Positions 4,067 to 25,692 of a stretch of DNA of 25,692 nt are shown here, piece by piece. The translations under genes and the position numbers were made by a program. Location: IMG/VR virus record IMGVR_UViG_3300025151_005385, positions 1-25,692 of that record; one strand, 5' to 3'. This DNA is from a virus. Positions within the stretch are counted from its first letter, which is position 1. Each line of letters starts with the position of its first letter. The notes under the pieces were generated by a model that was given only the letters and a program-made list of their open reading frames with translations, had not been told where the DNA came from and searched no databases.

Positions 4067-4067
4067 T

Positions 4068-6754: not shown

Positions 6755-6767
6755 AGTAGTCTATTAT
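6739..6767 (+). promoter_or_regulatory. Rightward sigma70-type promoter for GT61 operon
   Basis: TTGAAA (6739-6744), a 17-nt spacer and TATTAT (6762-6767). The predicted start near 6774 gives a leader of about 12 nt before the ATG at 6786, with no clear Shine-Dalgarno. The -10 overlaps the leftward -10 almost completely. Confidence 0.5.
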
Positions 6768-6792
6768 AACATAATTATTAATAAAATGTCAG
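6763..6792 (-). promoter_or_regulatory. Leftward extended -10 promoter for SGNH operon
   Basis: On the minus strand: CTGACA (6792-6787), an 18-nt spacer and a perfect TATAAT (6768-6763) preceded by the extended -10 TGT. The -35 covers the start codon region of the rightward GT61 gene. The predicted transcript starts about 2 nt before the SGNH ATG, so it would be nearly leaderless. Confidence 0.6.
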
Positions 6793-9429: not shown

Positions 9430-9548
9430 CTTGGTTTTTAATAGGAATCACATTAGGATTATGTATAAGATGCTTTTCTAAACCACATAAAAGCGAATTG
9501 GAAAAATACGAGGATCCATGGAACTGGACAGGTTTCGGAGGTGGATAA
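9423..9548 (+). CDS. 41-aa single-pass membrane protein
   Basis: A small gene: 41 codons from ATG at 9423, overlapping the previous stop by 7 bp and ending in the TAATG that starts the next gene. It has an N-terminal hydrophobic helix (LTWFLIGITLGLCIRCF, 2-18), then a charged segment and a Trp/Gly-rich end (WNWTGFGGG). The tight fit between coupled genes supports expression. It may anchor glycan enzymes at the inner membrane (inference only). The Gly-rich end is partly dictated by the next gene's Shine-Dalgarno. Confidence 0.6.
   Translation: MLTWFLIGITLGLCIRCFSKPHKSELEKYEDPWNWTGFGGG
9537..9541 (+). promoter_or_regulatory. Strong Shine-Dalgarno fixing the start at 9548
   Basis: GGAGG lies 6 nt before the ATG at 9548. 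It settles the start of paralogue C against an in-frame ATG at 9518, which has no such site and would lie inside the small membrane-protein gene. Confidence 0.7.
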
Positions 9549-10531: not shown

Positions 10532-12246
10532 TGTGTGGCATATATGGCATCACGGACAATGATCCACAATTTATTAAGAATTATATAGAAACATGTAAGC
10601 ACAGAGGTCCCGATGGGTCAAGCATATGGACATCAGACCATGTGACATTAGGTCACAATCTTCTGAGTATTATGGCCGAACCAAACAAGTCTGTCCAACC
10701 ATGGAAGACTCCTAAAGGCAATGTTCTAGTATACAATGGAGAAATTTTCAACTACGTAGAATTAGTAAAAAAATATAAAAACTTTCAAGATACAACAGGC
10801 TGTGACACTGAACTGCTGGCATGGGGGTTAGACGAGTATGGGATAGAATTTATTGATCAAATCGACTCTATGCATGGCTTTGCGTATTACGACATGCAGG
10901 CCCATACCATTACATTAAGCAGAGATCATGCCGGGATCAAACCATTATTCTATGCACAAATAGAGAAAGGCCTAGTGTTTGCATCAGAGATCAAAGGTAT
11001 GCTTGACACTGTACCTGACGCTAGAAAACTTGACAATCTCGCCTGCAGTATGATGACCAGGGCCGGAACCAATCCTTTAAGAAACACCCTGTTTACAAAT
11101 GTAAAAAAAGTCTTACCCGGAGAAACTATAGTGTACAACATAAAAAATAAAACCTTAAAACACGTGAAGAGGATCTACATAAGGCCAAATGCAGATCAAG
11201 ATTATTCAAATGATGAACTAAAAGATATGTTTGCTAAAACTGTCAAGCAGTGTGCTATAGGTAAAAGAAAAATTGGAGTTTTCTTAAGTGGAGGCCTCGA
11301 TTCATCAGTTGTAGCATACGAACTTAAACAATATACAAAGAGCGTAAACACTTTCACAAATAGTATATCGCCAAATATTCATGCAGACGAGGATTACAAC
11401 AGTGACTCTAAAGCCGCAAAAAGATTTGCATCAGATCAAAAATTTAACCATCACAATGTTGTTGTTTCTCCGGCAGAATATCTGTCAGCGTGGGAAGACA
11501 GCATTTGGTATATGGAACAACCTAATTACAACCCAAGCAATCCGATGTATTGCTATACAAACAAATTTCTAGCAGATAATGATATAGTGATTACCCTGGC
11601 CGGTGACATGGGTGATGAATTGCTAGGTGGGTACGCAAAATATACAAACTTGTTTCATAGCAAAAATAAGCCAACTAGTTGGAGAGAACTTTTGAAATTG
11701 TGGATAGAAAGAATTAAGAAAGGCAGTTACGTACTGACAGAGAATCCAGTAGACGACGAAGTATTATTAAACGAACTTGAAAAATGTTATGGTGACGAAC
11801 TTTGGAACCCAAATGACCCAACGGCATCATACATGGCATTAGATTGTGTTGCCCAGGTTCCAGAATCATTTTTTACAAGAAACGATTACTACGGAATGGC
11901 GTACAGCATGGAAGGGAGATTTCCTTTGGCATCTAAAGAATTTATGCAGTACTGTCTGAACATTAAATCTAAACATAAATTCAAAAAAACGACTGCAAAG
12001 TCTTTAGTGAAAGAAGCGTATAAGAACGTGTTACCTGATTATATTCTAAACAAAGAAAAAACAGGATGGACTGTGCCCATAGGTTATTGGTTAATGGACA
12101 ATGTTGATGATGACCTGTCTAATGTCTATGATGAGGAAATAGGCCTGGAAAGACTTAAATCACAAGGCAGATCACAGAAGGCAGGTAAACGATTGATGCC
12201 AGAGTGGCAAGTAAAAAAATGGAGGCAAAAATATCAAATTAAATAA
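10531..12246 (+). CDS. asnB: Glutamine-hydrolysing asparagine synthase-like amidotransferase
   Basis: A 571-aa protein of AsnB length. The N-terminal class II glutaminase domain has the processed Cys2 (MCGIYG), RGPDG (25-29), YNGEIFN (68-74) and D92. The C-terminal ATP-pyrophosphatase domain has the PP-loop SGGLDSS (253-259). AsnB makes asparagine from aspartate, ATP and glutamine; relatives in glycan clusters amidate sugar acids. Odd point: Arg49 of E. coli AsnB, which holds the glutamine carboxylate, aligns with Leu44 (GHNLLSI), although Asn69, Glu71 and Asp92 are kept. In a glycosyltransferase operon, amidation of a uronic acid or amino-sugar substituent is as likely as free asparagine synthesis (inference). 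Confidence 0.9.
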   Translation: MCGIYGITDNDPQFIKNYIETCKHRGPDGSSIWTSDHVTLGHNLLSIMAEPNKSVQPWKTPKGNVLVYNGEIFNYVELVKKYKNFQDTTGCDTELLAWGLDEYGIEFIDQIDSMHGFAYYDMQAHTITLSRDHAGIKPLFYAQIEKGLVFASEIKGMLDTVPDARKLDNLACSMMTRAGTNPLRNTLFTNVKKVLPGETIVYNIKNKTLKHVKRIYIRPNADQDYSNDELKDMFAKTVKQCAIGKRKIGVFLSGGLDSSVVAYELKQYTKSVNTFTNSISPNIHADEDYNSDSKAAKRFASDQKFNHHNVVVSPAEYLSAWEDSIWYMEQPNYNPSNPMYCYTNKFLADNDIVITLAGDMGDELLGGYAKYTNLFHSKNKPTSWRELLKLWIERIKKGSYVLTENPVDDEVLLNELEKCYGDELWNPNDPTASYMALDCVAQVPESFFTRNDYYGMAYSMEGRFPLASKEFMQYCLNIKSKHKFKKTTAKSLVKEAYKNVLPDYILNKEKTGWTVPIGYWLMDNVDDDLSNVYDEEIGLERLKSQGRSQKAGKRLMPEWQVKKWRQKYQIK

Positions 12247-12250
12247 TATC

Positions 12251-13168
12251 ATGCCAAGCCTAGCAGTTATAACAACCTTTCCCCCGAACAGATGGGACAC
12301 ATATGCAAGAAGGATGATAGAAAGTCACATACGCAATTGGCCTGATGATGTCAAACTTTATGTGTATTACGAAAAAACCAAACCAGACCTTACACATGAC
12401 AAAATAGTATATGTAGATCTAGAGAAAGAGTGTCCAGAACTCGTGGCGTTCAAACACAAATACAAAGACGATCCCGTTGCAAACGGAGAGACAACAGAGA
12501 TACCTAACGGAGTAAGACGGCTATCTGGTGCAGGAGACAAGGACAAGAACAAAGGTTCTTTTTTATGGGACGCTGTTAGATTTTCACACAAAACCTTTAC
12601 TGTTGCTCACGCTATCAAAAATTTACAGACCGATTATGTATTATGGCTAGATGCTGACACATTTACCTTTAGACCTATTACAAAACAATTTGTTTTTAAC
12701 CTACTGCCTGAAAACAAATTAGTAAATTATTTGGGCAGGGTAACTTATCCGGAATGTGGATGGGTTTGTTACAATAAAAACCATCCAAAAATAAATTTGT
12801 TCATGGACGAATGGACAAAATTATATAATACAGGCAGTATATTCAAAGAAATAGAGTGGCACGACAGTTATTTGTTTTGGCAAATTCTACAACGTGTTGC
12901 ACCCGATGATGGTGTGGACATAGGTAAGGGAGCAGGAGTAGAAGGCCTACATGTCTTTATTAACAGTGTCCTTGGTGATTACATAGATCACATGAAGGGC
13001 AAAAGGAAAATAAAAGGAAAAAGTTCTCGTTCAGACCTAAGAGTAAAAAAGGACGTTGACTACTGGCAGAACGTAGAGAACTACGATCCTTTTGGGGGTG
13101 TACAGTTTGATCCAAAACAAGTTGAGGACATTGTAAGCAAAGTTGCCAAAGGCAAGCAGGGTAACTAA
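12251..13168 (+). CDS. GT-A-type glycosyltransferase-like protein
   Basis: A 305-aa protein with a GT-A pattern. The first strand is LAVITTFPPNRWDTYARR (4-21); a DxD motif, DADT (134-137), sits in YVLWLDADTFTF. A C-terminal LGDYIDHMKGKRKIKG segment (241-256) supplies a His in the region expected for the second metal contact. It probably transfers a sugar from a nucleotide donor. There is a 4-nt gap after the asparagine synthase stop with a weak ribosome site, and TAATG coupling to the next gene. No CAZy family can be assigned by eye. Confidence 0.72.
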   Translation: MPSLAVITTFPPNRWDTYARRMIESHIRNWPDDVKLYVYYEKTKPDLTHDKIVYVDLEKECPELVAFKHKYKDDPVANGETTEIPNGVRRLSGAGDKDKNKGSFLWDAVRFSHKTFTVAHAIKNLQTDYVLWLDADTFTFRPITKQFVFNLLPENKLVNYLGRVTYPECGWVCYNKNHPKINLFMDEWTKLYNTGSIFKEIEWHDSYLFWQILQRVAPDDGVDIGKGAGVEGLHVFINSVLGDYIDHMKGKRKIKGKSSRSDLRVKKDVDYWQNVENYDPFGGVQFDPKQVEDIVSKVAKGKQGN

Positions 13169-14037
13169 TGAAAATAGAAGCATGGCCATTACACGGTCCA
13201 CTAAACAGTAAAAACATATTTGCAAAATTTATAAAGTCTATGCAGGCAACTGGCGACGAGGTACACATAAACAAAGAGACCGACGGTGACATGGCAGTTA
13301 TATGGAGTGTGCTGTGGCAAGGCAGAATGCGAAACTACAAAAAGATATGGGACAGATACAGAGAGGCCAACAAGCCGGTAGTAGTCCTAGAAGTGGGCGG
13401 CATGAGGAGAAACAAAAGTTTTAAGATCGCAATCAATGGTGTAAACAGAAAAGCAGATTTTGCCAATCAGTCTGTTGACAACGAAAGGTGGCCGCTGTTT
13501 AATCATACGCTGAAACCATGGAAGCAGACAGGTGACAAGATACTGATATTAGGACAACACGATACATCTGAACAATGGAAAGGTATGCCTAGTATGAATG
13601 TTTGGTTTAACCAACAAATACACGAAATTAGAAAACACACAACGAGACCAATACAGATCAGGCCGCATCCAAGGAATCCTGTAGGCCTTGATTTAAAACA
13701 CTACAAGGATGTTAGTTTAGCACGTCCGGTGATGGACAGAAACACCGTAGACGACACAGACTTCAAAGACACATTGAAAGACGCTTGGGCAGTGGTTAAT
13801 CATAGTTCTAATCCTGCAATGGAGGCCGTAATTAATGGCATACCTGTATTTGTATCTGCAGACAGCCTATGTTATGAAGTTGGCAATCATTCTCTGACAC
13901 AGATTAATAATCCCAAAATGCCTGATAGGACAGAGTGGGCCAACAGGCTGTCATACACAGAATGGTTCGAAGATGAAATAGATAAAGGCCTCCCATGGCA
14001 GAGAATTCGAGACAGGATCACAAAAAATTATCTATGA
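13168..14037 (+). CDS. GT-B-like glycan protein, paralogue D
   Basis: A 289-aa member of the four-copy family. It starts MKIEAWPLHGPLNSKN, like paralogue C, and contains TRPIQIRPHPRNP (159-171), AWAVVNHSSNPAMEAVINGIPVF, INNPKMPDRTEWANRLSYTEW and a short basic end. It has the cleanest RPHP plus Ser-rich loop of the four, so it may be the most typical catalytic copy. Its C-terminal half lines up with paralogue A over nearly its whole length. It overlaps the next gene by ATGA. A transferase acting on glycan is inferred. Confidence 0.68.
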   Translation: MKIEAWPLHGPLNSKNIFAKFIKSMQATGDEVHINKETDGDMAVIWSVLWQGRMRNYKKIWDRYREANKPVVVLEVGGMRRNKSFKIAINGVNRKADFANQSVDNERWPLFNHTLKPWKQTGDKILILGQHDTSEQWKGMPSMNVWFNQQIHEIRKHTTRPIQIRPHPRNPVGLDLKHYKDVSLARPVMDRNTVDDTDFKDTLKDAWAVVNHSSNPAMEAVINGIPVFVSADSLCYEVGNHSLTQINNPKMPDRTEWANRLSYTEWFEDEIDKGLPWQRIRDRITKNYL

Positions 14038-14768
14038 AAACTATTGCAGAAATAAAATGGGAACCGTATATAGGAGAAACTGTAAACACAAATCTCATAA
14101 TACGCAATGGCAAAAAAATACAGGAGACTGCCTACTATGAGGACAAAGTAAAGGCCCAACCAATAGGCAATGCCTACTGCATAGGTAACGGTCCGTCTAG
14201 AAAAGGTTTTGACCTTGATATGCTCAAACACACTGGACAAACTTACGGTTGCAACGCACTGTACAGGGACTTCATTCCTGATTTTATATTCTCTGTGGAC
14301 ACCAACATGACAATGAAAATGGTCGAGGACGGAGTAGGTTTGAAGACTATACATTACGCACCTGCCTTACAGGTTAACAGGAAGGAGAGCAAGGGTATGA
14401 TACACCTCATACCTAATAATCCGCACTGGATATCAGGTAATGCCGCATTCTGGACAGCAGGAGTGCATGGACACAAAAATATCTATCTCATAGGATACGA
14501 CTTCAGGCAGTATGGCAAAAACAAATTCAACAACATATACCAGGATACAGAATGTTATGGCGAAAGGAATGATGACAACATATTTGATGGATGGTTAAAA
14601 CAGTTTCGTGACATGTTGAAAATGAGACCTTACGTAAACTATACTTTGGTTCACGACAACCCTCAAGAGTACATGCACAACTTACAGACAGGTACGGACC
14701 TAGGTAACAGTAAAGTTATAAGTTACAAAGAATTTGAGAAAACAGTCTTAACACCTAGTAAGGGTTAA
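14034..14768 (+). CDS. GT42/DUF115-like putative sialyltransferase-fold protein
   Basis: A 244-aa protein. Key signals are CIGNGPSRKGFDL (49-61), the nucleotide-binding turn shared by DUF115/MptE-like proteins and GT42 sialyltransferases (Campylobacter CST-I has GNGPS), and SGNAAFWTAGVHGHKNIYLI (134-153) leading into GYDF, which parallels the CST-I stretch ending in IYLSGIDF. DUF115 proteins act in flagellin glycosylation. A CMP-sialic-acid-like donor is possible but unproven. The start at 14034 is chosen because of the ATGA overlap; an upstream in-frame ATG at 13995 lies inside the previous gene. It ends 21 bp into the convergent SprT gene and closes the glycan operon. Confidence 0.65.
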   Translation: MKTIAEIKWEPYIGETVNTNLIIRNGKKIQETAYYEDKVKAQPIGNAYCIGNGPSRKGFDLDMLKHTGQTYGCNALYRDFIPDFIFSVDTNMTMKMVEDGVGLKTIHYAPALQVNRKESKGMIHLIPNNPHWISGNAAFWTAGVHGHKNIYLIGYDFRQYGKNKFNNIYQDTECYGERNDDNIFDGWLKQFRDMLKMRPYVNYTLVHDNPQEYMHNLQTGTDLGNSKVISYKEFEKTVLTPSKG

Positions 14769-15224
14769 TCCAGCAAGTTTAAATTTATGTTTCCATGCAT
14801 AAAAGTTAGCATTGTGATTTGAATAAGGATCTTTGACCCATGTCATCTGGTAGAGGTGAACCATTTCGTGGGCCAGAGTTTCAATAAAATCTTTCCATTT
14901 TGGAAATTTACAATGTAACTCTATATAAAATTCAACATCTATATGATAAGGTATAAGTTTTTGGTTGAATTTTCCTTTAGGTGTTTTTCTATTATCCCAG
15001 TTGGCTACACATCTGCCCCAGTCTTTATGTAACTTCTTAACTTGTATTTCAACCATTGGTAATCTACTGTTGAACAACCCTTTGTTAATAACTCTAAACC
15101 ACTGATACGCTTGTTCTTGTGTTGGTCTGTATCCAACTTGATTTTTATACCTAGTCGCAGTATTTTCCAATCTAACTTTAAGTTGTTTCCTTATGTTTAC
15201 TGCCTTATTTTTTATCTTTTTCAT
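14748..15224 (-). CDS. SprT-like zinc metalloprotease
   Basis: A 158-aa SprT/Spartan-type protein. The zinc site is HEMVH (119-123, HExxH) in ETLAHEMVHLYQ, with a third ligand probably H137 in SNHNANFYAWKHKF. The WGRC segment (69-72) matches the family's conserved strand. The cellular relative Spartan degrades proteins crosslinked to DNA. The basic N-terminus (1-30) could bind DNA. It stands alone on the minus strand, divergent from the uvsW-region operon, with no clear promoter of its own. A role in clearing proteins from phage or host DNA is an inference from the family and nearby uvsW. Confidence 0.85.
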   Translation of the reverse strand: MKKIKNKAVNIRKQLKVRLENTATRYKNQVGYRPTQEQAYQWFRVINKGLFNSRLPMVEIQVKKLHKDWGRCVANWDNRKTPKGKFNQKLIPYHIDVEFYIELHCKFPKWKDFIETLAHEMVHLYQMTWVKDPYSNHNANFYAWKHKFKLAGLTLTRC

Positions 15225-15288: not shown

Positions 15289-16635
15289 ATGCACAACGAT
15301 TTGCCAAAAACAGTTAACGAAGCACTTAAAATACTAGCATATAATGATTATTTTTGGTCTGATGCATCAAATCCAGCAAAAATGAAGATCAAACCCCACC
15401 CCAAGGATTACGAGACTGTGAGATCCCTAGCAGAATCTCAATACGCATGGACAGAGAAACAGGCAAGATTAGCTCTCGTAATTTTGAAAAGATACCTAAC
15501 AAAATTCCAGGCACATGGAATGGATATTAAAAAGTTATTAGACAATCCCCAATACGAAGATGATTTTCGTGTAATAAGTTTTGACAAAGTCATAGAAAAA
15601 TACACAGATGAAGACAATGTAGACAGGATAGAGATGAGATTTCCTTACAATAAAAAAGTTATTCAACTAATACGTTGCATGAAGGACAAACGTAATCTGC
15701 CTGGAATGTATGCTCTGTTTGATGGTGAAAAAAAGAAATGGACTTTCCTACATACAGATGTCACTGCATACTACCTAACACTAATTGCTGTAAGATATGA
15801 TTTTAAATTTACCGACGAAAGTTTGTTGGACGACTATGAACAGATTAAAAAAGAAATAATTGGATTCCGTAAGCCAACAGCAAGACTTATCGGAGGTGAG
15901 ATTGTGATAGACAATGCACCAGAATCACTGCAGGAGTACTGGGATAAAAATTTGAAAGGCAGGCCTGCACTTACACAAGTTGACTCATTGAAGAATTTTG
16001 ATATTTCAACTAAAGGTATAGACGTCAAAGCGGCAACTTCTTTGGGTCATAAAATAGCACACAACAATTATCACAAGTTATGGATAGACTCAAAATCATT
16101 TAGCAAGACGGAAGTTGTAAAAGGATTGATGGAACTTGATTGTTTCCCATTGGTCATGCCAGTAAGCGGTGACATACACATGGAAGACGATGTGCGAGAC
16201 TTCTGGGAATGGTTAAATGCTTTTAAAACATATGGTATAGACATATTAAAGGATTGCAGTTGGGGGTTTGATGTCAAAGAACCTATCTACAAAAAAGATA
16301 TTGATAAACATCACAGTGACAGACACTACCTTTTAGACAATCAAAGGTCTAAAAGTTTTTTTGAGAACTTGTATGAACTACACCAAATGAGTAAACAATT
16401 CAAATTAATAAGCGATAATACCAAAATAATATTTGTAAGAAACAGAATACCAAGGGCATTAATCAAAAGCAACATTAAGCCAAATGCATCTCTTGTTGCT
16501 TTAGGTGGCGGGTACTACGCTACCGGAACAGATAACCTAAAAAGAATGCTTGAAAATCTTCCAAAAAAGTTGTATTATAGTGATCACCAACCGAGTAGTT
16601 GGGATTGGCATGATCACATTATAGTAAAACTTTAG
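15289..16635 (+). CDS. Unknown protein upstream of UvsW, possible HARP-like domain
   Basis: A 448-aa protein I do not recognise. Residues 1-95 are helical and rich in aromatic and basic residues. Around 112-175, a block running from RFPYNKKVIQLIRCMK through KKKWTFLHTDVTAYYLTLIA resembles HARP-type and UvsW-style N-terminal modules, where a predicted strand pair with W precedes a helix; this is an impression. The C-terminal half (about 260-448) has SWGFDV, KIIFVRNRIPRALI and a Gly-rich GGGYYATG turn, with no known catalytic motif. It has its own promoter and ends 1 bp before uvsW, so it may assist UvsW at forks or branched DNA. Real coding sequence beyond reasonable doubt. Confidence 0.8.
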   Translation: MHNDLPKTVNEALKILAYNDYFWSDASNPAKMKIKPHPKDYETVRSLAESQYAWTEKQARLALVILKRYLTKFQAHGMDIKKLLDNPQYEDDFRVISFDKVIEKYTDEDNVDRIEMRFPYNKKVIQLIRCMKDKRNLPGMYALFDGEKKKWTFLHTDVTAYYLTLIAVRYDFKFTDESLLDDYEQIKKEIIGFRKPTARLIGGEIVIDNAPESLQEYWDKNLKGRPALTQVDSLKNFDISTKGIDVKAATSLGHKIAHNNYHKLWIDSKSFSKTEVVKGLMELDCFPLVMPVSGDIHMEDDVRDFWEWLNAFKTYGIDILKDCSWGFDVKEPIYKKDIDKHHSDRHYLLDNQRSKSFFENLYELHQMSKQFKLISDNTKIIFVRNRIPRALIKSNIKPNASLVALGGGYYATGTDNLKRMLENLPKKLYYSDHQPSSWDWHDHIIVKL

Positions 16636-16636
16636 A

Positions 16637-18103
16637 ATGAGCAGTTGTAAATTAGTAATAAAAGACGAAGTAAACGTAAAATTTGAGAACCTATCACTCG
16701 AATGGCGTAAGAGACTATCAAACAAATTCAAATATGAAATACCGTATGCAAGACACTTGCCAGCAGTGAAACTAGGCAGATGGGACGGCAAGGTCAGTTT
16801 TTTTGGTCTAGGTGGCACAACATATCTAAATCTAGTAGATCAAATACTGCCAATTCTTGAAGAAGGTGGCGTATACGTAGATTTCGAAGACAAAAGGACC
16901 AAACATAATTTTGAATTCAAAGCAGTAGACAAAAATTACCTATCACACATAAATTGGCCAGAAGGACATCCTTGTGCTGGACAGCCTATTGAGTTACGAG
17001 ACTATCAAGTGGAAACTATTAACAAGTTTATAGAAAATCCACAATGCATACAAGAGATCGCCACTGGCGCAGGTAAGACCATTATTACAGCGGCACTGTG
17101 CCAATTGGTCGAACCGTATGGAAGGACACTAACAATAGTTCCAAACAAGAGCCTTGTTACACAGACAGAAGAGGATTTCCTTGCTTGTAACTTAGACGTT
17201 GGTGTGTACTACGGCGACAGGAAAGAACTAGGAAGATTCAACACGATAGCAACTTGGCAATCATTAAACGTGTTAGAGAAAAAGAGTAAAGACGAACACA
17301 CAACTGATTTCTTAGAAGCAATACAAGGCATCAATACAGTAATAATAGACGAGGTACACATGGCAAAAGCAGATGTACTTAAAAGATTACTGACTGGGCC
17401 ATTTGCACATTGTGGTATACGTTGGGGGTTAACTGGCACAGTGCCAAAAGCAGACTTTGAGTTTATGGGTTTGAAATGTAGTATAGGTGAAGTGGCAAAC
17501 AGAATTCAGGCAAGTGAATTGCAAGACAAGGGCGTTCTTGCTAATTGTCATGTTAACGTTATCCAAACACAAGACCATCCGCAGTTCAAAACTTACGCTG
17601 AAGAACTGAAATGGCTAACTACGGATAGTACCAGAATGAACTGGGTGGCAAACACAATACAAGATATTTCAACATCGGGAAACACATTAATTTTAGTAGA
17701 CAGAATTTCTGCGGGTGAAATATTAAACAAAAAATTAAAAGATTCTGTTTTCATATCAGGATCAACAAAAAATTTAGAAAGGAAAGAACACTACGATGAA
17801 GTGTCTACAACACAAAACAAAATTATTATTGCAACTTATGGGGTCGCATCCGTTGGAATTAATATTCCTAGGATATTCAATCTTGTTCTTATTGAACCTG
17901 GTAAATCTTTCGTAAGAGTTATTCAAAGCATAGGACGGGGAATACGTAAGGCAGAAGACAAAGACAACGTCCAAATTTGGGATATCACAAGTAGTTGCAA
18001 ATTTGCAAAAAGACATCTAGGCGCTAGAAAAAAGTTTTACAAAGAGGCAAATTACCCGTATAATATAGAGAAAATAGATTATGAAAATACTAACACTAGA
18101 TAA
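16637..18103 (+). CDS. uvsW: UvsW-like superfamily 2 helicase
   Basis: A 488-aa ATP-dependent DNA/RNA helicase close to T4 UvsW (503 aa), which unwinds R-loops and branched DNA and moves forks. The N-terminal module has LGRWDGKVSF (46-55) and LVDQI, matching T4's GNWDGRIRL region. Q-motif-like LRDYQ (120-124), motif I ATGAGKT (142-148), motif II DEVH (238-241), motif III LTGT (265-268) and motif VI QSIGRGIRK (430-438) are all present, so the enzyme should be active. It is one base after the previous stop and overlaps the next gene by 23 bp. A promoter lies inside its last codons. Confidence 0.93.
   Translation: MSSCKLVIKDEVNVKFENLSLEWRKRLSNKFKYEIPYARHLPAVKLGRWDGKVSFFGLGGTTYLNLVDQILPILEEGGVYVDFEDKRTKHNFEFKAVDKNYLSHINWPEGHPCAGQPIELRDYQVETINKFIENPQCIQEIATGAGKTIITAALCQLVEPYGRTLTIVPNKSLVTQTEEDFLACNLDVGVYYGDRKELGRFNTIATWQSLNVLEKKSKDEHTTDFLEAIQGINTVIIDEVHMAKADVLKRLLTGPFAHCGIRWGLTGTVPKADFEFMGLKCSIGEVANRIQASELQDKGVLANCHVNVIQTQDHPQFKTYAEELKWLTTDSTRMNWVANTIQDISTSGNTLILVDRISAGEILNKKLKDSVFISGSTKNLERKEHYDEVSTTQNKIIIATYGVASVGINIPRIFNLVLIEPGKSFVRVIQSIGRGIRKAEDKDNVQIWDITSSCKFAKRHLGARKKFYKEANYPYNIEKIDYENTNTR
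18036..18064 (+). promoter_or_regulatory. Internal sigma70-type promoter at the end of uvsW
   Basis: TTTACA (18036-18041), a 17-nt spacer and a perfect TATAAT (18059-18064), within uvsW. The predicted start near 18071 is about 10 nt from the ATG at 18081. It would let the small genes and gp62-like gene be expressed apart from uvsW. Confidence 0.55.
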
Positions 18104-18584
18104 CAGAACATACACATTAGAAAAGATTCCAGAATGGGTAGATGAAAAACTGAGATTTGCAGTCTTGGATAATTCAGATCCAAGCAACCCAGATTTCTTT
18201 TACATACCTTTGATATTCCTAGAAAGTTTCAACGCACCGGCGGCTGTTTTAGAAATTGGACCGCATAAAATAAAAATGCCTTTGGACTGGAAAATGTTGA
18301 TAGGCGAGGCAGGTCAACAAGAAATGCATGTCTTACCAATAACAAGTTTAAATGATAGAGGATTTGATGCATTCACATTCAATCCGTTGTCGAGTCCAAA
18401 GCCGGACTTTCATCCCATAGACGTGGTAGACATATACACAGAAGTAAAGTGGTACTTTCCAAAAATAAAATCTGGACAGATGTTAGCGGTGCCTCTGAAC
18501 AATGGGCCTGCACCTATGTGTGCATACTTTGTAAAAGATATTTCAAGACAATGTGAACAGGTAGACTATGGCTCGGTCTGGTAG
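18081..18584 (+). CDS. Conserved protein of unknown function
   Basis: A 167-aa protein of no family I can name; I recall similar proteins in marine T4-like phages, without a function. It starts MKILTLDNRTYTLEK, has a predicted beta-rich middle, a FTFNPLSSPKPDF stretch (about 94-106) and a conserved-looking KWYFPKIKSGQMLAVPL segment (about 123-139). There is no signal peptide or membrane helix. It overlaps uvsW by 23 bp and the next gene by 17 bp, and a promoter lies just upstream. Company with uvsW and gp62 suggests a replication or transcription accessory role, from context only. Confidence 0.75.
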   Translation: MKILTLDNRTYTLEKIPEWVDEKLRFAVLDNSDPSNPDFFYIPLIFLESFNAPAAVLEIGPHKIKMPLDWKMLIGEAGQQEMHVLPITSLNDRGFDAFTFNPLSSPKPDFHPIDVVDIYTEVKWYFPKIKSGQMLAVPLNNGPAPMCAYFVKDISRQCEQVDYGSVW

Positions 18585-18813
18585 AAGATCAATAACAATA
18601 GAGGCACCTATAATGATAACAAGTAACAAAATTGCTGTATGGATGGACGAGGACTGGATGCACAATTTTTTTGATTTCTTAAAAGAACACAAATTGAAAC
18701 TTTCCGCTTTACAACATAAGCAAAGGAAAATAAAATTAACATTTATAAATGCAAAAGAATGCACACTATTTGGATTAAAATATGCCAGCAGAGAAAAATC
18801 GAAAATTTTTTGA
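18568..18813 (+). CDS. Small basic protein of unknown function
   Basis: An 81-aa protein starting MARSGRRSITIEAP. It has the pattern WMDEDWMHNFFDFLKEHKLK (25-44) and a basic, Lys-rich second half. There are no catalytic motifs. It overlaps both neighbours (17 and 32 bp), as expected for a real gene in this tightly packed operon. It lies directly before the gp62-like gene; binding to DNA or a replication protein is possible from the charge but unproven. Confidence 0.68.
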   Translation: MARSGRRSITIEAPIMITSNKIAVWMDEDWMHNFFDFLKEHKLKLSALQHKQRKIKLTFINAKECTLFGLKYASREKSKIF

Positions 18814-19234
18814 TCTAAGGAACGGACTAAAGGCCGTTGACTTCAGAAACAAAGACTACTTTGATAGGATAGATGACAAGGAAAAATCCTTGTACTCACC
18901 GTATATGCTAATGAGGTACGTGTCTAATGTATCATCCAAAGATCCTTTTTATGTAGAACACTATGTAGAAATGGTGAACGAGTGTGTAAACAAGCACTGT
19001 TTCTCGCTTGGCAAACATAAAAAACTTTTATGGATCTTAACTGCTATGTGTGGAGCGGAGACACAACAGTTCCATCCATGGCTTAAACCAATGAAACGTG
19101 TGCCAAATAAAAGTCTTAAAAAACTACAACAGATATATCCAACATGGAAAGAAACTGACTTAGAAACATTAGACAAAATAATCACAGATAGAGAACTAGA
19201 GGATCTGATAGAGGCTCATGGGATCGACAGTTAA
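18782..19234 (+). CDS. gp62-like sliding-clamp-loader subunit (tentative)
   Basis: A 150-aa helical protein. T4 gp62 (187 aa) joins four gp44 subunits to load the gp45 clamp. The pattern FFDLRNGL (9-16), YSPYMLMRYVSN (39-50), an EMVNEC helix (63-68) and a late block with KETDLETLDKIITDRELEDL (about 125-144) follows the layout I know from marine T4-like gp62 proteins: a short helix, YxPYMxNRxLS, a long helix, then a C-terminal helix pair. Neither gp44 nor gp45 is in this window, so context gives only partial support. It overlaps neighbours by 32 and 17 bp. Confidence 0.55.
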   Translation: MPAEKNRKFFDLRNGLKAVDFRNKDYFDRIDDKEKSLYSPYMLMRYVSNVSSKDPFYVEHYVEMVNECVNKHCFSLGKHKKLLWILTAMCGAETQQFHPWLKPMKRVPNKSLKKLQQIYPTWKETDLETLDKIITDRELEDLIEAHGIDS

Positions 19235-20441
19235 TTTTATAAATTTAAATCTTAAAGATATAACTTCTACGTTTCTCGATAACAGTGCTAGGTGTTTTAC
19301 GAATTTTAACACAATACACTATAAAAACGCAAAAGCATCTGACATAAATTACTTGCCAATATATCTCAGGGTGCCTCACATTACTGACGAAATTCTATCT
19401 AAAATTCATAATGATATATTTTTATTAATGCAACAAGGTATTATTAGACCGTTGATTATAATGGCCACAGAACAATGGGATCTATTTGATACATTCAAAT
19501 GGAAACACAATAGATTAAATCTTGTTCCTGATTTTGGAGATGTACCTTACTCACAGGTAGTCAAGCATTTTACCACAAGGTCTATTCCAGAAGAAAACAT
19601 CACATGGCTTGTTCCAAACACACAACACATAAGAGATGTTTCTTACCTTAGAGAGAAAGGATACAGCATCAAAACAAAATTCTATACATACGACTTTTTC
19701 TTAGAAATAATGAAACCTGTGGCCCGTGACTATGAAATCAAACCAAAGAATTTTAAACGACATTTTAGTTGTTTGTGTAGAGGCACTCCAAGAAATCACA
19801 GATATGGAATAATTTACAACATATGGAAAAATAAACTCTTTAACAAAGGTGCCATAAGTTGTAGCAGTTATCAAAAACTAGAAGAATCAAAAGAATCTAA
19901 TTGGGTAAACGACACTGTATCGACTGAAACATTTATGAACAATTTTGAGGACTGGGAGAAAAATAAAGAACTATTCATTGGTAGTTTACCTATTCAGTAT
20001 GACAACCTCCTGAATGAACACTGGGGCGTGGAGTACAACGAAGCATCTATATTTGATGATAATTTCTTGTGGGTGGCATCGGAAACTAAAAAACCTCATG
20101 ACGGTGTATACATAACTGAAAAGACATGGAAGGCAATTGCTTATGGTTCTCCGTTCGTCATCAACGGCGATAACAGATCTTTACAGTACTTAAAGAACAT
20201 GGGGTTCAAAACTTTTAGTGAGTACTGGGACGAGTCTTATGACGAGGTCGATGACATCGAGAAAATAAAAAGAATAACTGAAATTATAAAAAACATATGC
20301 GTCAAGGATCTTGACCAAATAAATGATTTATACAAAAGTATGATCCCAATTTTACAACACAATCAAAAAATATTAATAAACAATACACAGCACACAGACT
20401 TAATCAAGAATCTTTCGGAGACACATGGCGTCAAAATATAA
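19218..20441 (+). CDS. Fucosyltransferase-like (GT10-type) glycosyltransferase
   Basis: A 407-aa protein whose C-terminal half has the donor-site pattern of alpha-1,3-fucosyltransferase-like enzymes: VASETKKPHDGVYITEKTWK (286-305), then AIAYGSPFVI (306-315) and DESYDEVDD (338-346). The SET..ITEKTWKAI..G.PF block is the diagnostic part. RHFSCLCRGTPRNHR (181-195) looks like the linker strand entering the second Rossmann domain. It is separated from the main glycan cassette by uvsW and sits between gp62-like and a zinc-finger gene, with 17-bp overlaps on both sides. It may add a terminal sugar to the same glycan; GDP-fucose as donor is a family-level guess. Confidence 0.7.
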   Translation: MGSTVNFINLNLKDITSTFLDNSARCFTNFNTIHYKNAKASDINYLPIYLRVPHITDEILSKIHNDIFLLMQQGIIRPLIIMATEQWDLFDTFKWKHNRLNLVPDFGDVPYSQVVKHFTTRSIPEENITWLVPNTQHIRDVSYLREKGYSIKTKFYTYDFFLEIMKPVARDYEIKPKNFKRHFSCLCRGTPRNHRYGIIYNIWKNKLFNKGAISCSSYQKLEESKESNWVNDTVSTETFMNNFEDWEKNKELFIGSLPIQYDNLLNEHWGVEYNEASIFDDNFLWVASETKKPHDGVYITEKTWKAIAYGSPFVINGDNRSLQYLKNMGFKTFSEYWDESYDEVDDIEKIKRITEIIKNICVKDLDQINDLYKSMIPILQHNQKILINNTQHTDLIKNLSETHGVKI

Positions 20442-21108
20442 ATGCACATACTGTGGCAAAGAGTTTTTAAAAGAACGAACACTACAGGTACATCTATGTG
20501 AACCAAAAAGACGATACCTACAAAAAGATGAAAAGTGGGTAGTAAATGCGTTCATGGTGTTTCAGAGGTTTTATCAAATACATCAACACAACTCGAGGCC
20601 AAAAACATACGATGATTTTGTTAAGAGTGCTTACTATAATGCATTTGTCAAGTTTGGTCGATTCATCATGCACATAAATCCACTGTATCCTGACAAGTAC
20701 ATTGATTATGTACTACGGTCTAAAATTAAACTCGATCACTGGGCCAGGGACGATCTCTACGAAGTCTATCTTATCGAAGCACTGAAGACGGAGCCTGTAG
20801 AGGCCGCACTGCAAAGAAGCATAACAACAATGATGGATTGGGCAACAGAACAAAATGCACAATGGTCTGATTACTTTAGACTGGTTAATAAAAACAGAGC
20901 AGTACAACACATACAGCAAGGCAACATAAGTCCATGGCTGTTGTTAGGTTGCAACGCAGGCAAAAGGATGTTAAAATCTTTTAACGACGAACAATTACAA
21001 ATGATAGAAAGATTTATAAATCCAAGTTTCTGGCCAAGCAAATTAAAAAGTTATCCGGCAGATCATATGTTGGTCCAGGACACAGCAAGGGAGGCCAAAA
21101 TTGTCTAA
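20425..21108 (+). CDS. C2HC zinc-finger protein of unknown function
   Basis: A 227-aa protein. The N-terminus is a zinc-finger-like module: C7-x2-C10-x12-H23-x-C25 (YKCTYCGKEF then VHLC). This differs from classical C2H2 fingers because a Cys ends it after only one residue. The rest is helical with many Trp and aromatic residues (SYPADHML near the end) and no enzyme motif. I recall relatives in marine T4-like phages. DNA or protein binding in replication or transcription is likely from the finger and the neighbours (gp62-like, mini-DnaE). It overlaps the next gene by 8 bp and contains that gene's Shine-Dalgarno. Confidence 0.75.
   Translation: MASKYKCTYCGKEFLKERTLQVHLCEPKRRYLQKDEKWVVNAFMVFQRFYQIHQHNSRPKTYDDFVKSAYYNAFVKFGRFIMHINPLYPDKYIDYVLRSKIKLDHWARDDLYEVYLIEALKTEPVEAALQRSITTMMDWATEQNAQWSDYFRLVNKNRAVQHIQQGNISPWLLLGCNAGKRMLKSFNDEQLQMIERFINPSFWPSKLKSYPADHMLVQDTAREAKIV
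21087..21094 (+). promoter_or_regulatory. Strong Shine-Dalgarno fixing a TTG start at 21101
   Basis: AAGGGAGG lies 6 nt before TTG at 21101. It is among the strongest ribosome sites in the window, and no ATG is suitably placed, so it justifies the rare TTG start of the 77-aa gene. Confidence 0.7.
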
Positions 21109-21334
21109 GATAGATTTAGAAGTTTCAGATAATTTAGAGTTCAATGAAGGCGACTGTGCAGTAATTATAAAAGAAGATGGCTCGATAGGAAGAGTGATAA
21201 TGCCAAAAGTTGATAAGGAGATATTAAAAACAGAAGGTTATAAAAAACTTCTAGATGTGTTAGAAGTATTACAACCAGGTTCAAGAGATAAAATGATTAA
21301 ACATGCTGAAAAAGATAAAGGGAGTATACACTAA
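21101..21334 (+). CDS. 77-aa protein of unknown function, TTG start
   Basis: The first half (KIDLEVSDNLEFNEGDCAV, 3-21) looks beta-rich and acidic; the second half is a basic helix (GYKKLLDVLEVLQ, 47-59) with a Lys-rich end. No family recognised. It begins with TTG behind AAGGGAGG and ends in TAATG with the mini-DnaE ATG, so the two are translationally coupled. The coupling suggests a partner or regulator of mini-DnaE, which is an inference. Confidence 0.72.
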   Translation: MSKIDLEVSDNLEFNEGDCAVIIKEDGSIGRVIMPKVDKEILKTEGYKKLLDVLEVLQPGSRDKMIKHAEKDKGSIH

Positions 21335-21924
21335 TGCCTGACGTAGACATAGATTTCTTTGACAGAGACAACACATTGAAGTTGTTCAAACACACACCAG
21401 CGTCCATGATCAAAGATGGCAAAAGTGAAAAACACAAAACTGGAGTGTACTTTCATGCTGTACCAGAACATCCTGTAACAGGACACGCATCGTTGGATTA
21501 CAAAAATGCGGAAGATAGAGGATACTTCAAGATAGACTGTTTGAACGTAAACATCTATAAAGATGTTAAATCAGAACAAGAACTTGTGGAACTAATGATA
21601 CAGGAACCCGATTGGGACATGTTGAAAGATCCTAAAGTGGTAGAGACCCTATTCCACCTAAATGGCCATTTCAACATTGTTTCCAAATTACAGCCAAAGA
21701 CAATAGAACAACTTGCGGCTGTGCTAGCCATCATACGTCCAGCAAAGAGACATCTGATGCACAAGGACTGGGTGGACATAATGAAACAAGTATGGATAAA
21801 ACCAACCGACGGGTCATACTTCTTCAAGAAATCACACGCAGTGGCATATGCACAGGCTATAGTGGTGCAGATGAATTTGATCAACAGGACTAAATATAGT
21901 TTTGATGAGACATCAAAAAACTAA
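21334..21924 (+). CDS. Miniature DnaE-like (C-family DNA polymerase) protein
   Basis: A 196-aa protein that follows bacterial DNA polymerase III alpha (DnaE, over 1000 aa) in motif order. PDVDIDF (2-8) matches the PDxDxDF metal-binding motif; KHKTGVYFHAV (34-44, roughly) matches the HxxGVVI-type strand; LDYKNAEDRGYFKIDCLN (54-71) matches the DxKDxxxxGxxKxDFLG block holding the third catalytic Asp (D68); LQPKTIEQLAAVLAIIRPA (119-137) matches the LxPxxFEDxxAxxALxRPG block; FFKKSHAVAYA (163-173) matches FxKSHxxAYA. PHP, thumb, clamp-binding and OB domains are missing. All three Asp positions appear kept, so activity is possible; a decoy or regulator of host Pol III is the main alternative. ATG overlaps the previous stop (TAATG), with AAAGGGAG just upstream. 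Confidence 0.72.
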   Translation: MPDVDIDFFDRDNTLKLFKHTPASMIKDGKSEKHKTGVYFHAVPEHPVTGHASLDYKNAEDRGYFKIDCLNVNIYKDVKSEQELVELMIQEPDWDMLKDPKVVETLFHLNGHFNIVSKLQPKTIEQLAAVLAIIRPAKRHLMHKDWVDIMKQVWIKPTDGSYFFKKSHAVAYAQAIVVQMNLINRTKYSFDETSKN

Positions 21925-22063
21925 AAAAAGAATCAAGAAAAAATCCAAAACAAAATCCAAGTCTTCGCTTACTTCAGAGATTAACAGTTATCAGCCGGAT
22001 AGTCCTTTAACATTACACTATCTTACGACAGGTGCTATACTTCCTGAAAAAAAGACTAGGTAG
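21905..22063 (+). CDS. 52-aa Lys-rich basic protein
   Basis: ATG at 21905 lies 20 bp inside the end of the mini-DnaE gene, and TAG ends at 22063, 8 bp into the convergent gene. The N-terminal 20 residues are mostly Lys/Arg/Ser (MRHQKTKKRIKKKSKTKSKS), and the rest is polar with LTTGAILPEKKTR at the end. It fills a stretch otherwise without a gene. Such a tail could bind nucleic acid, but composition alone is weak evidence for function, and chance coding in an A-rich region is possible. Confidence 0.45.
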   Translation: MRHQKTKKRIKKKSKTKSKSSLTSEINSYQPDSPLTLHYLTTGAILPEKKTR

Positions 22064-22069
22064 GTCTTC
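22045..22069 (-). terminator. Rho-independent terminator of the leftward gene
   Basis: On the minus strand, AAGAC (22068-22064) and GTCTT (22056-22052) form a 5-bp stem with a 7-nt loop, extended by a G-U pair, followed by a run of T (22051-22045). The stop codon of the leftward gene lies in the hairpin. The stem is short, so efficiency may be modest. Confidence 0.5.
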
Positions 22070-22430
22070 GTACTAATTGGATGGTACGTCTCTTCACCCG
22101 TTTCTTTGAAATTTCTGACAGTTTGACTGTTGGACCATGCACAATCTCGATATCTTTAGAATTTAAAGTTACCAAGGTAGATCTAAAATAACGAAATTCT
22201 CCTTTGAGGAATATGTTAATTGGTAATTTACGATTGGATTCGTGCCACCATGTTTCTCCACATTTCAAAAATTTCATCTTGTCCTGCGGCATCATGAGCC
22301 TGCCATAGTCATAGAAACTAATAACATTTGTGTCCTCGTTCTGCACTATGCCTACAAACTCCATATCGCCCTTTCTGATGAGGCTCAAGAATGGGAATTT
22401 GTCTCTGAGTGTGTTAAAAATTTCGTTCAT
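22056..22430 (-). CDS. Conserved protein of unknown function (leftward)
   Basis: A 124-aa protein with no nameable domain; I recall relatives in marine T4-like phages. It starts MNEIFNTLRDKFPFLSLI, has a VGIVQNEDTNVISFYDYG segment (26-43), a likely conserved GETWWHESNRKLPINIFL block (58-75) and a Lys/Arg-rich end. It lies alone on the minus strand between a replication operon and a late gene. No clear promoter or Shine-Dalgarno is visible before it. The basic C-terminus could bind nucleic acid. Confidence 0.7.
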   Translation of the reverse strand: MNEIFNTLRDKFPFLSLIRKGDMEFVGIVQNEDTNVISFYDYGRLMMPQDKMKFLKCGETWWHESNRKLPINIFLKGEFRYFRSTLVTLNSKDIEIVHGPTVKLSEISKKRVKRRTIQLVRRPT

Positions 22431-22462: not shown

Positions 22463-23266
22463 ATGCAAACAGTACAAAGGTATTTAATAAATCAGTTGGT
22501 AATAGCCTACATAAGTGGTTACCATGGAAGGAATTCAAAAGTGTACGATAGACGCTTAACACTGCATAGAGGGGTATCTAACCCGGTTTCATTCACGTTT
22601 AAAAACGAGGATCAGAAGGCGCAGGACATCACATCTAAAACATATGAGTTCAATATGATTGATACAGAGAGCAAGAAAGCGGTACTTACGAAGACATTGA
22701 CCATACTAGATGACGGATCTACAGTGAGCACTAAAGGTGACGCAAGTTGCACGATCACTGAAGGCGATCTTCTACCGCTGGATGCAAAGTTCTACAATTT
22801 CTCAGTTCGTGAAGTTAAGTCTGATAACAGTAGAGAAATAACATATTCAGACACAGGATATGCGGCGGCTGGTACAGTAGAACTGTTAGATGGGGCATAT
22901 CCAGAATTTGTGCCAAGCACCAATGTTTCTACTTTTACCACAGGCGGTCCACTGGCATATGTGTCAGGCAACATCGACGCTAGGCCTGGTATAAACAACA
23001 ACAAGGCATTACACACAATCGCTGTGTACACAAAAAACTTCCAAGGCTCTTTTAGAGTGCAGGCTACTATGAGTGCAAGTCCTAGTGATTCAGATTTCTT
23101 TGATATTACCTTAGATGGTGAATCATCAAGCACTGTGACGTATATTCTACCTACTACCTTGGTGTATCAGTATAACTTTACAGGTGTTTACCATAGTGTG
23201 AGATTTGTATGGGGCAACGACACTGGTAACACTGGAGTGATTGACAAAATCCTTTATAGACAGTAA
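22463..23266 (+). CDS. Putative virion structural protein (BppU-N-like)
   Basis: A 267-aa, beta-rich, Ser/Thr-rich protein. Residues 27-150 (from KVYDRRLTLHRG through KNEDQKAQDIT to EITYSDTGYAAAG) resemble the N-terminal baseplate/fibre-attachment module of BppU-type proteins and similar proteins I recall from marine T4-like phages. The second half (about 155-267), starting GGPLAYVSG and ending DKILYRQ, looks like a second beta-sandwich with a jelly-roll-like strand pattern. A late promoter box precedes it. An alternative ATG at 22456 is in another frame and gives only 31 codons. Baseplate, fibre or capsid-decoration roles are all possible. Confidence 0.62.
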   Translation: MQTVQRYLINQLVIAYISGYHGRNSKVYDRRLTLHRGVSNPVSFTFKNEDQKAQDITSKTYEFNMIDTESKKAVLTKTLTILDDGSTVSTKGDASCTITEGDLLPLDAKFYNFSVREVKSDNSREITYSDTGYAAAGTVELLDGAYPEFVPSTNVSTFTTGGPLAYVSGNIDARPGINNNKALHTIAVYTKNFQGSFRVQATMSASPSDSDFFDITLDGESSSTVTYILPTTLVYQYNFTGVYHSVRFVWGNDTGNTGVIDKILYRQ

Positions 23267-23276: not shown

Positions 23277-24290
23277 ATGAACCTGATCCAGAATACAATT
23301 CTGACAAGTCTGCCTGCGGGTAGAAAAAAAACTCCAAGTGGTTGGATAAGTTTCAATGCACCATGTTGTGTACACAACGGCGAGACTGCAGACAAAAAGA
23401 AACGTGGCGGCATAATGACAAGTGCTGATGGCACTGTGAGTTATCATTGTTTCAACTGTGGATTCAAAGCAAGTTATGTGATAGGACGTAAACTGACCTA
23501 CAAGATGAGGCAGTTTATGAGTTACATCGGAGTACCAGAGGACACTATACGTAAATTGGCCATAGAGGCAATGCGTGAAGAAGAGAGCGACACCAAATAT
23601 GAAAAGAAAAAATTTGTTACTTTTAAAAATAAAACACTTCCTAAGGACGCACAAAAATTAGATGTGTGGTTAGAAAAATATGTTTCTAAAGACCTCACAG
23701 AACAACAATGGCAAAAAATTGATGGTTTGTTAAAATATTTGGAGAACAGAGGTATAGGTGCAGACTGGTATGACTTCATGTATTCCCCAGACAAAATATG
23801 GGACGTGCATCAGAGATTGTTGATCCCATTTTATTGGAGAGGAGATATAGTTGGCTTTACTGGTAGGATGTTTGAAAAGTCAGACGGAGTAAAATATTAC
23901 ACAGATGTCTGGCCTGGGTACGTTTTTAATATGGATGCACAGGATTGGACAAGGAAGTTTGTGATTGTTACTGAAGGACCGTTTGATGCTATATCCGTTT
24001 CTGGTGTGAGTATCCTTGGGTCAGAGATAAATGATATACAGCGAGAGCTCATAGACGGACTAGGCCGACAGGTTATAGTAGTACCAGACAGAGATGCTCC
24101 AGGAGAAAAACTGATAAATCAAGCAAAAGAATTTGGATGGAGTGTAGCGTTTCCTGAATGGGAAGACGGAGTAAACGACATAGCAGAAGCAGTTCAAAAA
24201 TATGGTAGACTGTTTGTGTTACAATCAATACTTAAAACAACAGAATCTAACAAACTAAAAATAGATTTGAAAAGGAAAATGTATGGTTAG
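23277..24290 (+). CDS. 61: gp61-like DnaG-type primase
   Basis: A 337-aa primase near T4 gp61 length (342). It makes RNA primers on the lagging strand together with gp41. The N-terminal zinc site is built from C30/C31, H33, C58 and C61 (PCCVHN and YHCFNCGF). The TOPRIM catalytic core has TEGPFDA (232-238), VPDRDAPG (269-276) and DGVNDIAEA (297-305), giving the Glu and Asp metal ligands. AGGG lies just before the start. It overlaps the next gene by 8 bp and sits close to gp41, as in T4 gene order. Confidence 0.9.
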   Translation: MNLIQNTILTSLPAGRKKTPSGWISFNAPCCVHNGETADKKKRGGIMTSADGTVSYHCFNCGFKASYVIGRKLTYKMRQFMSYIGVPEDTIRKLAIEAMREEESDTKYEKKKFVTFKNKTLPKDAQKLDVWLEKYVSKDLTEQQWQKIDGLLKYLENRGIGADWYDFMYSPDKIWDVHQRLLIPFYWRGDIVGFTGRMFEKSDGVKYYTDVWPGYVFNMDAQDWTRKFVIVTEGPFDAISVSGVSILGSEINDIQRELIDGLGRQVIVVPDRDAPGEKLINQAKEFGWSVAFPEWEDGVNDIAEAVQKYGRLFVLQSILKTTESNKLKIDLKRKMYG

Positions 24291-25191
24291 TTGGCACATA
24301 GAACCTACTTCAAAATGCATATTAGAATGTCCTCTTTGTGACAGGACCTGGTTTTATGAAAAATTTAAAAAAAGAGAACTGCATGAAATTAACATTGGCC
24401 ATCTTGCAAAATTTCTAGGGAATGATTCTGCAGTAACAATGTGTGGCAACAACGGCGATCCTATATATCATCAAAATTTCTTAGAGTTATGTTCTGTGTT
24501 GAAAAAACAAAATACAGCGATTGCAATACACACCAATGGGAGTGGCAAGAATAAAGAATGGTGGCAAAACCTAACAAAACAACTGGGTCCAAAGGATAGT
24601 ATTACTTTCGCAGTAGATGGTCTCGAAGATACAAATCATATCTATAGGAAGAACGCGAAATGGGACACTATAATGACTGCAATGAAAGTTTGCGTTTCCG
24701 CCTCCGTCAAAGTAATTTGGAAATTTATTGTATTCAAACAGAACCAACATCAAATAGAAGTTGCAAGGAAACTGTCAAAAAAAATTGGCATTGATTATTT
24801 CATGCTTGAAAAAAGTGATAGGTGGTGGGATCAAACAGATTTAATGCCAGATCAAAAATATGTAGACCACAAGCATGAATACAAAAGCACAGTGGTAAAA
24901 GGTAAAAATGTTAAAGGCATAATGAACCCAACTTGCATGGTTAAAAACAAACCCGAGTACGAATTGTATATAGACAGTGCTGGTAATTTTTATCCTTGTT
25001 GTTGGCAAGGACTTTATGCATTTCGTCATAAGGATATTTTTGATCCGAGGCTAGAAAACTTCAATATTAAAAATACCACGGCAGAAGAGATTTTGGCACA
25101 CCCAAAGGTAAAAGAATTTTTTGACAAAATTTATGACTATGAAAAAGTAAACAAATGTTGTAAAATATACTGTGGAGCAACAAATGGCTGA
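24283..25191 (+). CDS. Radical SAM enzyme with SPASM-like C-terminus
   Basis: A 302-aa protein. The [4Fe-4S] motif is C12-x3-C16-x2-C19 (SKCILECPLC), followed by GNNGDP (55-60), which fills the place of the GGEP SAM-binding motif. C-terminal cysteines C218, C239/C240, C292/C293 and C297 could hold an auxiliary cluster of the SPASM or twitch type. Such enzymes modify peptides, proteins or sugars through a 5'-deoxyadenosyl radical. It is squeezed between primase and helicase genes by 8-bp overlaps on both sides. The substrate is unknown; a link to the glycan cassette or to a peptide or protein target cannot be decided here. Confidence 0.83.
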   Translation: MVSWHIEPTSKCILECPLCDRTWFYEKFKKRELHEINIGHLAKFLGNDSAVTMCGNNGDPIYHQNFLELCSVLKKQNTAIAIHTNGSGKNKEWWQNLTKQLGPKDSITFAVDGLEDTNHIYRKNAKWDTIMTAMKVCVSASVKVIWKFIVFKQNQHQIEVARKLSKKIGIDYFMLEKSDRWWDQTDLMPDQKYVDHKHEYKSTVVKGKNVKGIMNPTCMVKNKPEYELYIDSAGNFYPCCWQGLYAFRHKDIFDPRLENFNIKNTTAEEILAHPKVKEFFDKIYDYEKVNKCCKIYCGATNG

Positions 25192-25692
25192 ATACACTTT
25201 TGATGTACAAAAACTTTATATAGAGATGCTACTAGCAGATGCAGAATCATTTGCTAGGGCACAGAATATATTCAAACCTGAATCGTTCGATCGTAAATTG
25301 CAACCTATTGCAAAGTTTGTTAAGGATTACATGGACGAGTACAAGGTTATGCCAGATGTTGAACAAGTAAATGCTAAACATGATATAAAATTAAAATCAG
25401 CAAAAGATCTAGACCCAAGTCACTTCAATTGGCTACTAGATGAATTTGAAACATTCTCAAGACACAAAGCATTAGAACATGCAATACTACAATCAGCAGA
25501 CATGCTTGAAAAGGGAGATTATGCTCCTGTCGAAGACATGGTCAAGGAAGCAGTAAATGTGGGACTTACACGTGATCTTGGTACAGACTACTTTGAGGAT
25601 CCTAAAGGAAGACTTGAGGCACTCAAGGCAAACAACGGACAGATCAGCACTGGCTGGAATAACTTAGACAAGAAACTGTTTGGCGGTTTTAA
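25184..25692 (+). CDS. 41: gp41-like DnaB-family replicative helicase, 3'-truncated
   Basis: Starts with ATG at 25184, overlapping the radical SAM gene by 8 bp, and runs off the window after 169 visible residues. The first 120 residues are helical, as in the DnaB N-terminal domain (AEYTFDVQKLYIEMLLAD at 2-19). The last visible stretch, ISTGWNNLDKKLFGGF (154-169), is the typical entry to the RecA-like motor domain. Walker motifs lie past the window edge. T4 gp41 is the hexameric helicase that works with gp61, which fits the neighbouring primase. Confidence 0.83.
   Translation, partial: MAEYTFDVQKLYIEMLLADAESFARAQNIFKPESFDRKLQPIAKFVKDYMDEYKVMPDVEQVNAKHDIKLKSAKDLDPSHFNWLLDEFETFSRHKALEHAILQSADMLEKGDYAPVEDMVKEAVNVGLTRDLGTDYFEDPKGRLEALKANNGQISTGWNNLDKKLFGGF

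Follow-up and report, generated by a model that had tools for sequence, protein, structure and literature searches.

Group 2.2 jumbo phages are known to encode a split minimal DNA polymerase III (Pol III) alpha subunit, borne on two separate and distant genes beside a B-family polymerase, the C-terminal unit holding the Mg2+- and template-binding parts. Membership of this family also implies that the genome has no further Pol III alpha domains. Iyer et al. (2021; PMC7824862), who described it, put the split enzyme forward as a model for the ancestral Pol III module, and the case that such a polymerase needs explaining was made already there. For phage CBB, a 172-aa 'truncated' Pol III alpha, far shorter than normal, was reported (PMC5259590); it was called a truncation, the two-gene split being unrecognised, and the protein may be either half. 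An alpha subunit is also listed in the paper on phage Atu_ph07 (PMC6102473), and both halves of phage Phosso are annotated in GenBank as 'DnaE-like DNA polymerase III alpha'. A literature search retrieved no biochemical study or assay of this split family.

Among cellular members of the C-family, the PHP and (HhH)2 domains are nearly universal; the metal-binding Asp residues (D401, D403 and D555 in Escherichia coli DnaE) are conserved throughout the family, and D405 is an extra Asp of the DnaE type, replaced by Asn in PolC (PMC3919608). In Bacillus subtilis, RNA primers are extended for PolC by DnaE, an accessory enzyme of the C-family (PMC5627055).

The DNA analysed here (the window) is a virus record of 25,692 bases, a 25.7-kb fragment of an uncultivated marine member of the split family. 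Its 196-aa ORF, with an ATG start and the N-terminus MPDVDIDF, is called the C-half below; its coordinates and those of its neighbours are collected in Table 1. The nearest isolate homologues are those of Atu_ph07 and Phosso (55% identity), and a homologue on a 328-kb contig is closer still (59% identity); CBB also carries one. The window protein is a new member of a family already in the literature, and not a discovery in itself. What the analysis adds to that family is a common marine clade, together with a fixed breakpoint and the residue conservation. The clade differs from the phages of Iyer et al. in being marine and uncultivated, in that its N-terminal half is not linked to the C-half on one contig, and in that some of its contigs add a one-piece Pol III alpha.

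Table 1. Features of the C-half and of the surrounding replication block in the window.
Feature	Coordinates	Strand	Remarks
UvsW-type helicase	16637..18103	+	Start of the conserved replication block (PHROG, locus comparison)
phrog_11279	18081..18584	+	Member of the conserved block (PHROG, locus comparison)
phrog_11758	18782..19234	+	E 5.2e-15; possible clamp-loader small subunit (gp62-like), an inferred reading
phrog_11058	20425..21108	+	Conserved upstream neighbour (PHROG, locus comparison)
77-aa ORF	21101..21334	+	Overlaps the C-half by TAATG; 130 clade loci
C-terminal half of split DNA polymerase III alpha core (very probable)	21334..21924	+	PHROG 11778; family, fold, profile, conservation
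PDVDIDF block	21337..21357	+	Residues 2-8; D3/D5/D7 = E. coli D401/D403/D405
KHKTGVYF strand	21430..21453	+	Residues 33-40; = E. coli KHAGGVVI 510-517
FKIDCL	21526..21543	+	FKIDCLNV = residues 65-72; K66 = E. coli K553
Fingers block LQPKTIEQLAAVLAIIRPAK	21688..21747	+	Residues 119-138; = E. coli LQPDCFEDMIALVALFRPG (ends 641)
FKKSHAVAYA	21823..21852	+	Residues 164-173; = E. coli FNKSHSAAYA 756-765
phrog_11637	22056..22430	-	Directly downstream of the C-half; 10/11 compared loci
phrog_14467, virion structural protein family	22463..23266	+	Conserved neighbour (PHROG)
phrog_47, DNA primase	23277..24290	+	Conserved neighbour (PHROG)
DnaB-like (gp41) replicative helicase	25184..25692	+	Cut by the window end

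An earlier note on this DNA had read the 196-aa protein as a miniature DnaE, containing five DnaE blocks in order and the three catalytic Asp residues but lacking the PHP, thumb, clamp-binding and OB domains. All five blocks are indeed present in the DnaE order, and the named domains are indeed absent. In addition to the correspondences of Table 1, D68 of the FKIDCL block is E. coli D555, the third catalytic Asp, and H34, G37, R135-P136 and H168 correspond to H511, G514, R639-P640 and H760, respectively. The C-half shares with E. coli DnaE (2HNH) the metal site (D401, D403, D555 and D405), the KHxxG, RP and KSH blocks, their order and the fold, but has 196 residues against 1160. The PHP, (HhH)2, clamp-binding and OB domains are lost, as is nearly all of the thumb (for PHP and (HhH)2, the protein gave no Pfam match), and the fingers are largely gone between RPG and KSH, E. 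coli residues 642-755 being represented by about 26 residues. It should be noted that the GS motif is missing as well, which the earlier note had overlooked. This motif binds dNTP phosphates in Pol-beta-type nucleotidyltransferases.

Homology to the DnaE core, with its three catalytic Asp, was upheld by the PHROG, hhalign, fold and conservation evidence. In the PHROG search, residues 3-187 matched positions 8-195 (of 197) of phrog_11778, 'DNA polymerase', with an E-value of 1.5e-65, and phrog_405, which is full-length DnaE, matched at 1e-5. The Pfam Pol III finger domain gave 0.0043 for the window protein, below the cut-off; across the family the best value was 3.3e-5, and 15 of 22 members matched at E up to 1. 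When the C-half was compared by hhalign with a small DnaE alignment, the probability was 83-85% (E 7-9e-6) and D68 fell on E. coli D555, against 0.2% probability in the control comparison. A single-sequence search of the PDB with the 196-aa protein returned nothing relevant, while in a PDB profile search all seven matches were to Pol III alpha, with collinear blocks, but were weak (E 0.12 to 2.5); the statistical support comes from families and profiles, and within the PDB only the profile and fold searches were informative. No cellular relatives were confirmed in a search of genome contigs.

The earlier note had called for a structure or profile search against DnaE structures in the PDB, and such a search did match Pol III alpha. 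The C-half was modelled with AlphaFold2 from an alignment of the window protein with its metagenomic homologues (31 sequences in all), giving a mean pLDDT of 89.5 and a pTM of 0.80. The best PDB fold match of this model, which spans E. coli DnaE residues 401-781, was 2HNH (Z 8.6, rmsd 4.5 A, 177 residues), such a large rmsd being expected in the absence of the thumb and of part of the fingers. After re-alignment of 842 PDB chains, Pol III alpha or PolC occupied each of the top 14 rows of the ranking (Z 8.6-5.8), and the first unrelated row had a Z of 3.8. From this alignment of the entire model to Pol III alpha, the three Asp would be expected to come together in one site. Foldseek gave a modest E-value of 0.003 and a probability of 1.0 for 2HPI.

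The missing dNTP-binding part was found elsewhere. When five complete phage genomes holding the C-half were searched with Pfam PF07733, each contained a distant gene of about 170-180 aa with a GxGRGS motif, matching positions ~20-97 of PF07733 only. This family (PHROG 11127, bearing the GRGS motif) is referred to as the N-half. Its members typically end in EFL(K/R) followed by the stop codon, at a point where DnaE reads ERFLNPER...PDFDVDF, and in 101 of 115 loci the terminus lies 33 residues past the start of GRGS. The N-half model aligns to E. coli residues 278/282-397 with a Z of about 10 (best Z 11.8, to 5LEW), only Pol III alpha or PolC being matched above noise, and hhalign gave 97%. Since the N-half ends at about residue 397 and the C-half starts at about 401, the two halves tile DnaE with a break at ~397-401.

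Both halves, together with a B-family polymerase, were present in all 10 isolate genomes checked and in all 7 metagenomic contigs longer than 200 kb, the latter having been picked for having the N-half; the expectation that T4-like phages with a B-family polymerase also hold homologues was thus borne out. The pairwise distances of N- and C-halves correlate across 18 genomes (r 0.83, reached by 0 of 2000 permutations), a correlation also expected from plain vertical descent alone. The GRGS motif on the partner, the shared breakpoint and the co-occurrence lead us to identify the window protein, with high confidence, as the C-terminal unit of a Pol III core that is split in two.

The first suggestion in the earlier note, that the 196-aa protein works alone as a tiny active polymerase, could appeal to its three catalytic Asp residues and to its confident isolated fold. 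However, the missing N-terminal part is encoded by a separate distant gene ending where the C-half starts, which makes a stand-alone enzyme very improbable: GRGS is found in none of 143 C-halves and in all of 114 N-halves, and no large related genome that was checked lacks the partner.

Residues D3, D5, D7, H34, G37, K66, D68, R135, P136, H168 and Y172 are invariant in 143 distinct C-halves, with the proviso that one row of the alignment is gapped at D3-D7, so that these three Asp occur in 142 of 143 and D68 in 143 of 143. Between the window C-half and 79 members of its clade, the median dN/dS is 0.036, the dS values being close to saturation. This conservation bears on another suggestion of the earlier note, namely that the protein is a decoy or inhibitor binding the Pol III partners of the host. 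The protein does resemble the host enzyme, and phages do make host-targeting proteins, but a decoy would have no need of the metal and nucleotide residues, all of which are retained across 143 sequences, and the partner-contacting PHP, clamp-binding and OB domains are missing. We consider this the least probable of all the readings discussed here.

Returning to the split core, we propose that the C-half supplies the Mg2+-binding palm strands and the reduced fingers of a phage-specific enzyme, and that it would bind the separately encoded N-half of ~170-180 aa, with its GRGS dNTP-phosphate motif. The C-family nucleotidyltransferase site rebuilt by the pair would comprise about 370 residues and lack the PHP (which is likewise absent from the N-half), thumb, clamp-binding, HhH and OB domains. 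The reassembled pair is likely to be catalytically active, and it would probably work as a low-processivity accessory polymerase beside the B-family replicase of the phage; the explanation as a whole, including this accessory role, seems to us a probable one.

In the N-halves, the conserved DnaE residue R390, which precedes FL (alignment position E174), is changed to Glu, and this may alter the nucleotide pocket. Polymerase activity is not assured, because the thumb and the RPG-KSH part of the fingers are mostly missing and R390 is Glu. The pair could instead be a nucleotidyltransferase other than a templated polymerase, acting in DNA-end addition, repair or recombination. Such a function would suit the retention of the Pol-beta-type metal site with loss of the thumb and of much of the fingers, and UvsX, UvsY and UvsW are all encoded within the window; the blocks that are kept (RP and KSH..Y), however, are those of the DnaE fingers, and the neighbours include a primase and a replicative helicase. 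A non-templated function is accordingly regarded as unlikely, if less so than a stand-alone enzyme or a decoy.

If the halves reassemble into an active enzyme, they would define the smallest part of the bacterial replicase that still catalyses, and one may then ask why the pair is so strongly constrained in phages that have a B-family replicase of their own.

The gene neighbourhood offers some indication of the role of the split core. The order UvsW, phrog_11279, phrog_11758, phrog_11058, small ORF and C-half is largely common to RaK2-like and related jumbo phages, and so is the order that follows, with phrog_11637, the structural gene, the primase and the DnaB-like helicase. As the earlier note pointed out, the C-half overlaps the 77-aa ORF by TAATG, and no such ORF was detected in the other phages compared. 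The same note had placed the gene near a clamp-loader-like gene; the phrog_11758 member plausibly fits that description, because its homologue in phage Slicko01 lies directly 3' of an RFC-type gene. The N-half lies near the gp44 clamp loader in GAP32 and Atu_ph07, and near an AAA-ATPase in Phosso.

Because the C-half lies with a primase and a helicase and the N-half near the clamp loader, and because of the precedent of B. subtilis DnaE, a role in short-patch synthesis beside the B-family replicase is favoured. Our best guess, drawn from gene neighbourhood and that precedent, is that at the fork the pair would extend RNA primers or fill short gaps; primer extension itself is put forward tentatively, with somewhat less than even confidence. 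Were it true, the split enzyme would be the phage counterpart of Pol alpha or of B. subtilis DnaE. The latter is a functional analogue only, an accessory C-family polymerase working beside another main replicase; it is, however, full-length and a single chain, and the parallel is offered as a hypothesis.

The window, being only a fragment, shows neither an N-half nor a B-family gene of its own, and neither gene was found on the contigs of the window clade, which are fragments of up to 91 kb. N-half profile matches on five clade contigs proved to be a different, one-piece polymerase. An N-half cluster, MAEKTKTKINDHGDV... (L126, L133, L141, L160, L474-L502), has the tetranucleotide profile nearest to that of the window clade, and its contigs come often or partly from the same metagenomes as those of the C-half clade. 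In a contig-overlap search no contig carried both a clade C-half and an N-half. The MAEKTKTKINDHGDV cluster is a probable but unproven N-half of the window clade, the assignment being circumstantial because few genes are common to the two sets of contigs; the genome from which the window derives would be expected to encode such an N-half.

The one-piece enzyme is a compact Pol III alpha encoded by nine clade contigs (L183-L187, L374-L377), about 5 kb downstream of their C-half; in the window this position would fall just past the end (25692). In L183 it has 562 aa, with a GS motif, PDVDIDF, KVD, fingers and a C-terminal extension, and is devoid of PHP. An endonuclease III (HhH-GPD) gene adjoins it in the five contigs whose flanks were read.

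Its presence, and the finding of no clade contig with an N-half, would fit a marine clade that has lost the N-half, its C-half having taken another partner or role and the one-piece enzyme supplying the C-family activity. Yet other clade contigs reaching past gp41 (e.g. G026 and G016) do not have the one-piece gene, the C-half is intact, with the low dN/dS given above, and a matching N-half cluster occurs in shared metagenomes, so that loss of the N-half appears improbable, if not to the degree of a self-contained enzyme. With the split core retained, marine members might run three DNA polymerases, namely the B-family replicase, the split Pol III core for primer extension or gap repair and, in a subset, the one-piece enzyme. 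The split enzyme would then rank among the smallest functioning C-family polymerases, and would show that catalysis can dispense with the PHP, thumb and HhH domains; this reading we regard as doubtful.

Some other genes of the window deserve mention. Inside the replication block, a 407-aa ORF (19218-20441, +) is without Pfam or PHROG match and has no counterpart in the four clade contigs compared. A 448-aa protein encoded 5' of UvsW (15289-16635, +) is conserved in the clade at 71-84% identity; it has no PHROG match, and its match to DUF7400 is sub-threshold only. The gap between primase and helicase is occupied by a Radical SAM/SPASM gene (24283-25191, +), found in only 24 of about 130 clade loci. 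Finally, a variable cassette at ~4000-14800, with FkbM methyltransferase, 2OG-Fe(II) oxygenase-like and asparagine-synthase genes, is probably concerned with surface or metabolite modification, and is followed by a gene for a SprT-like metallopeptidase (14748-15224, -).
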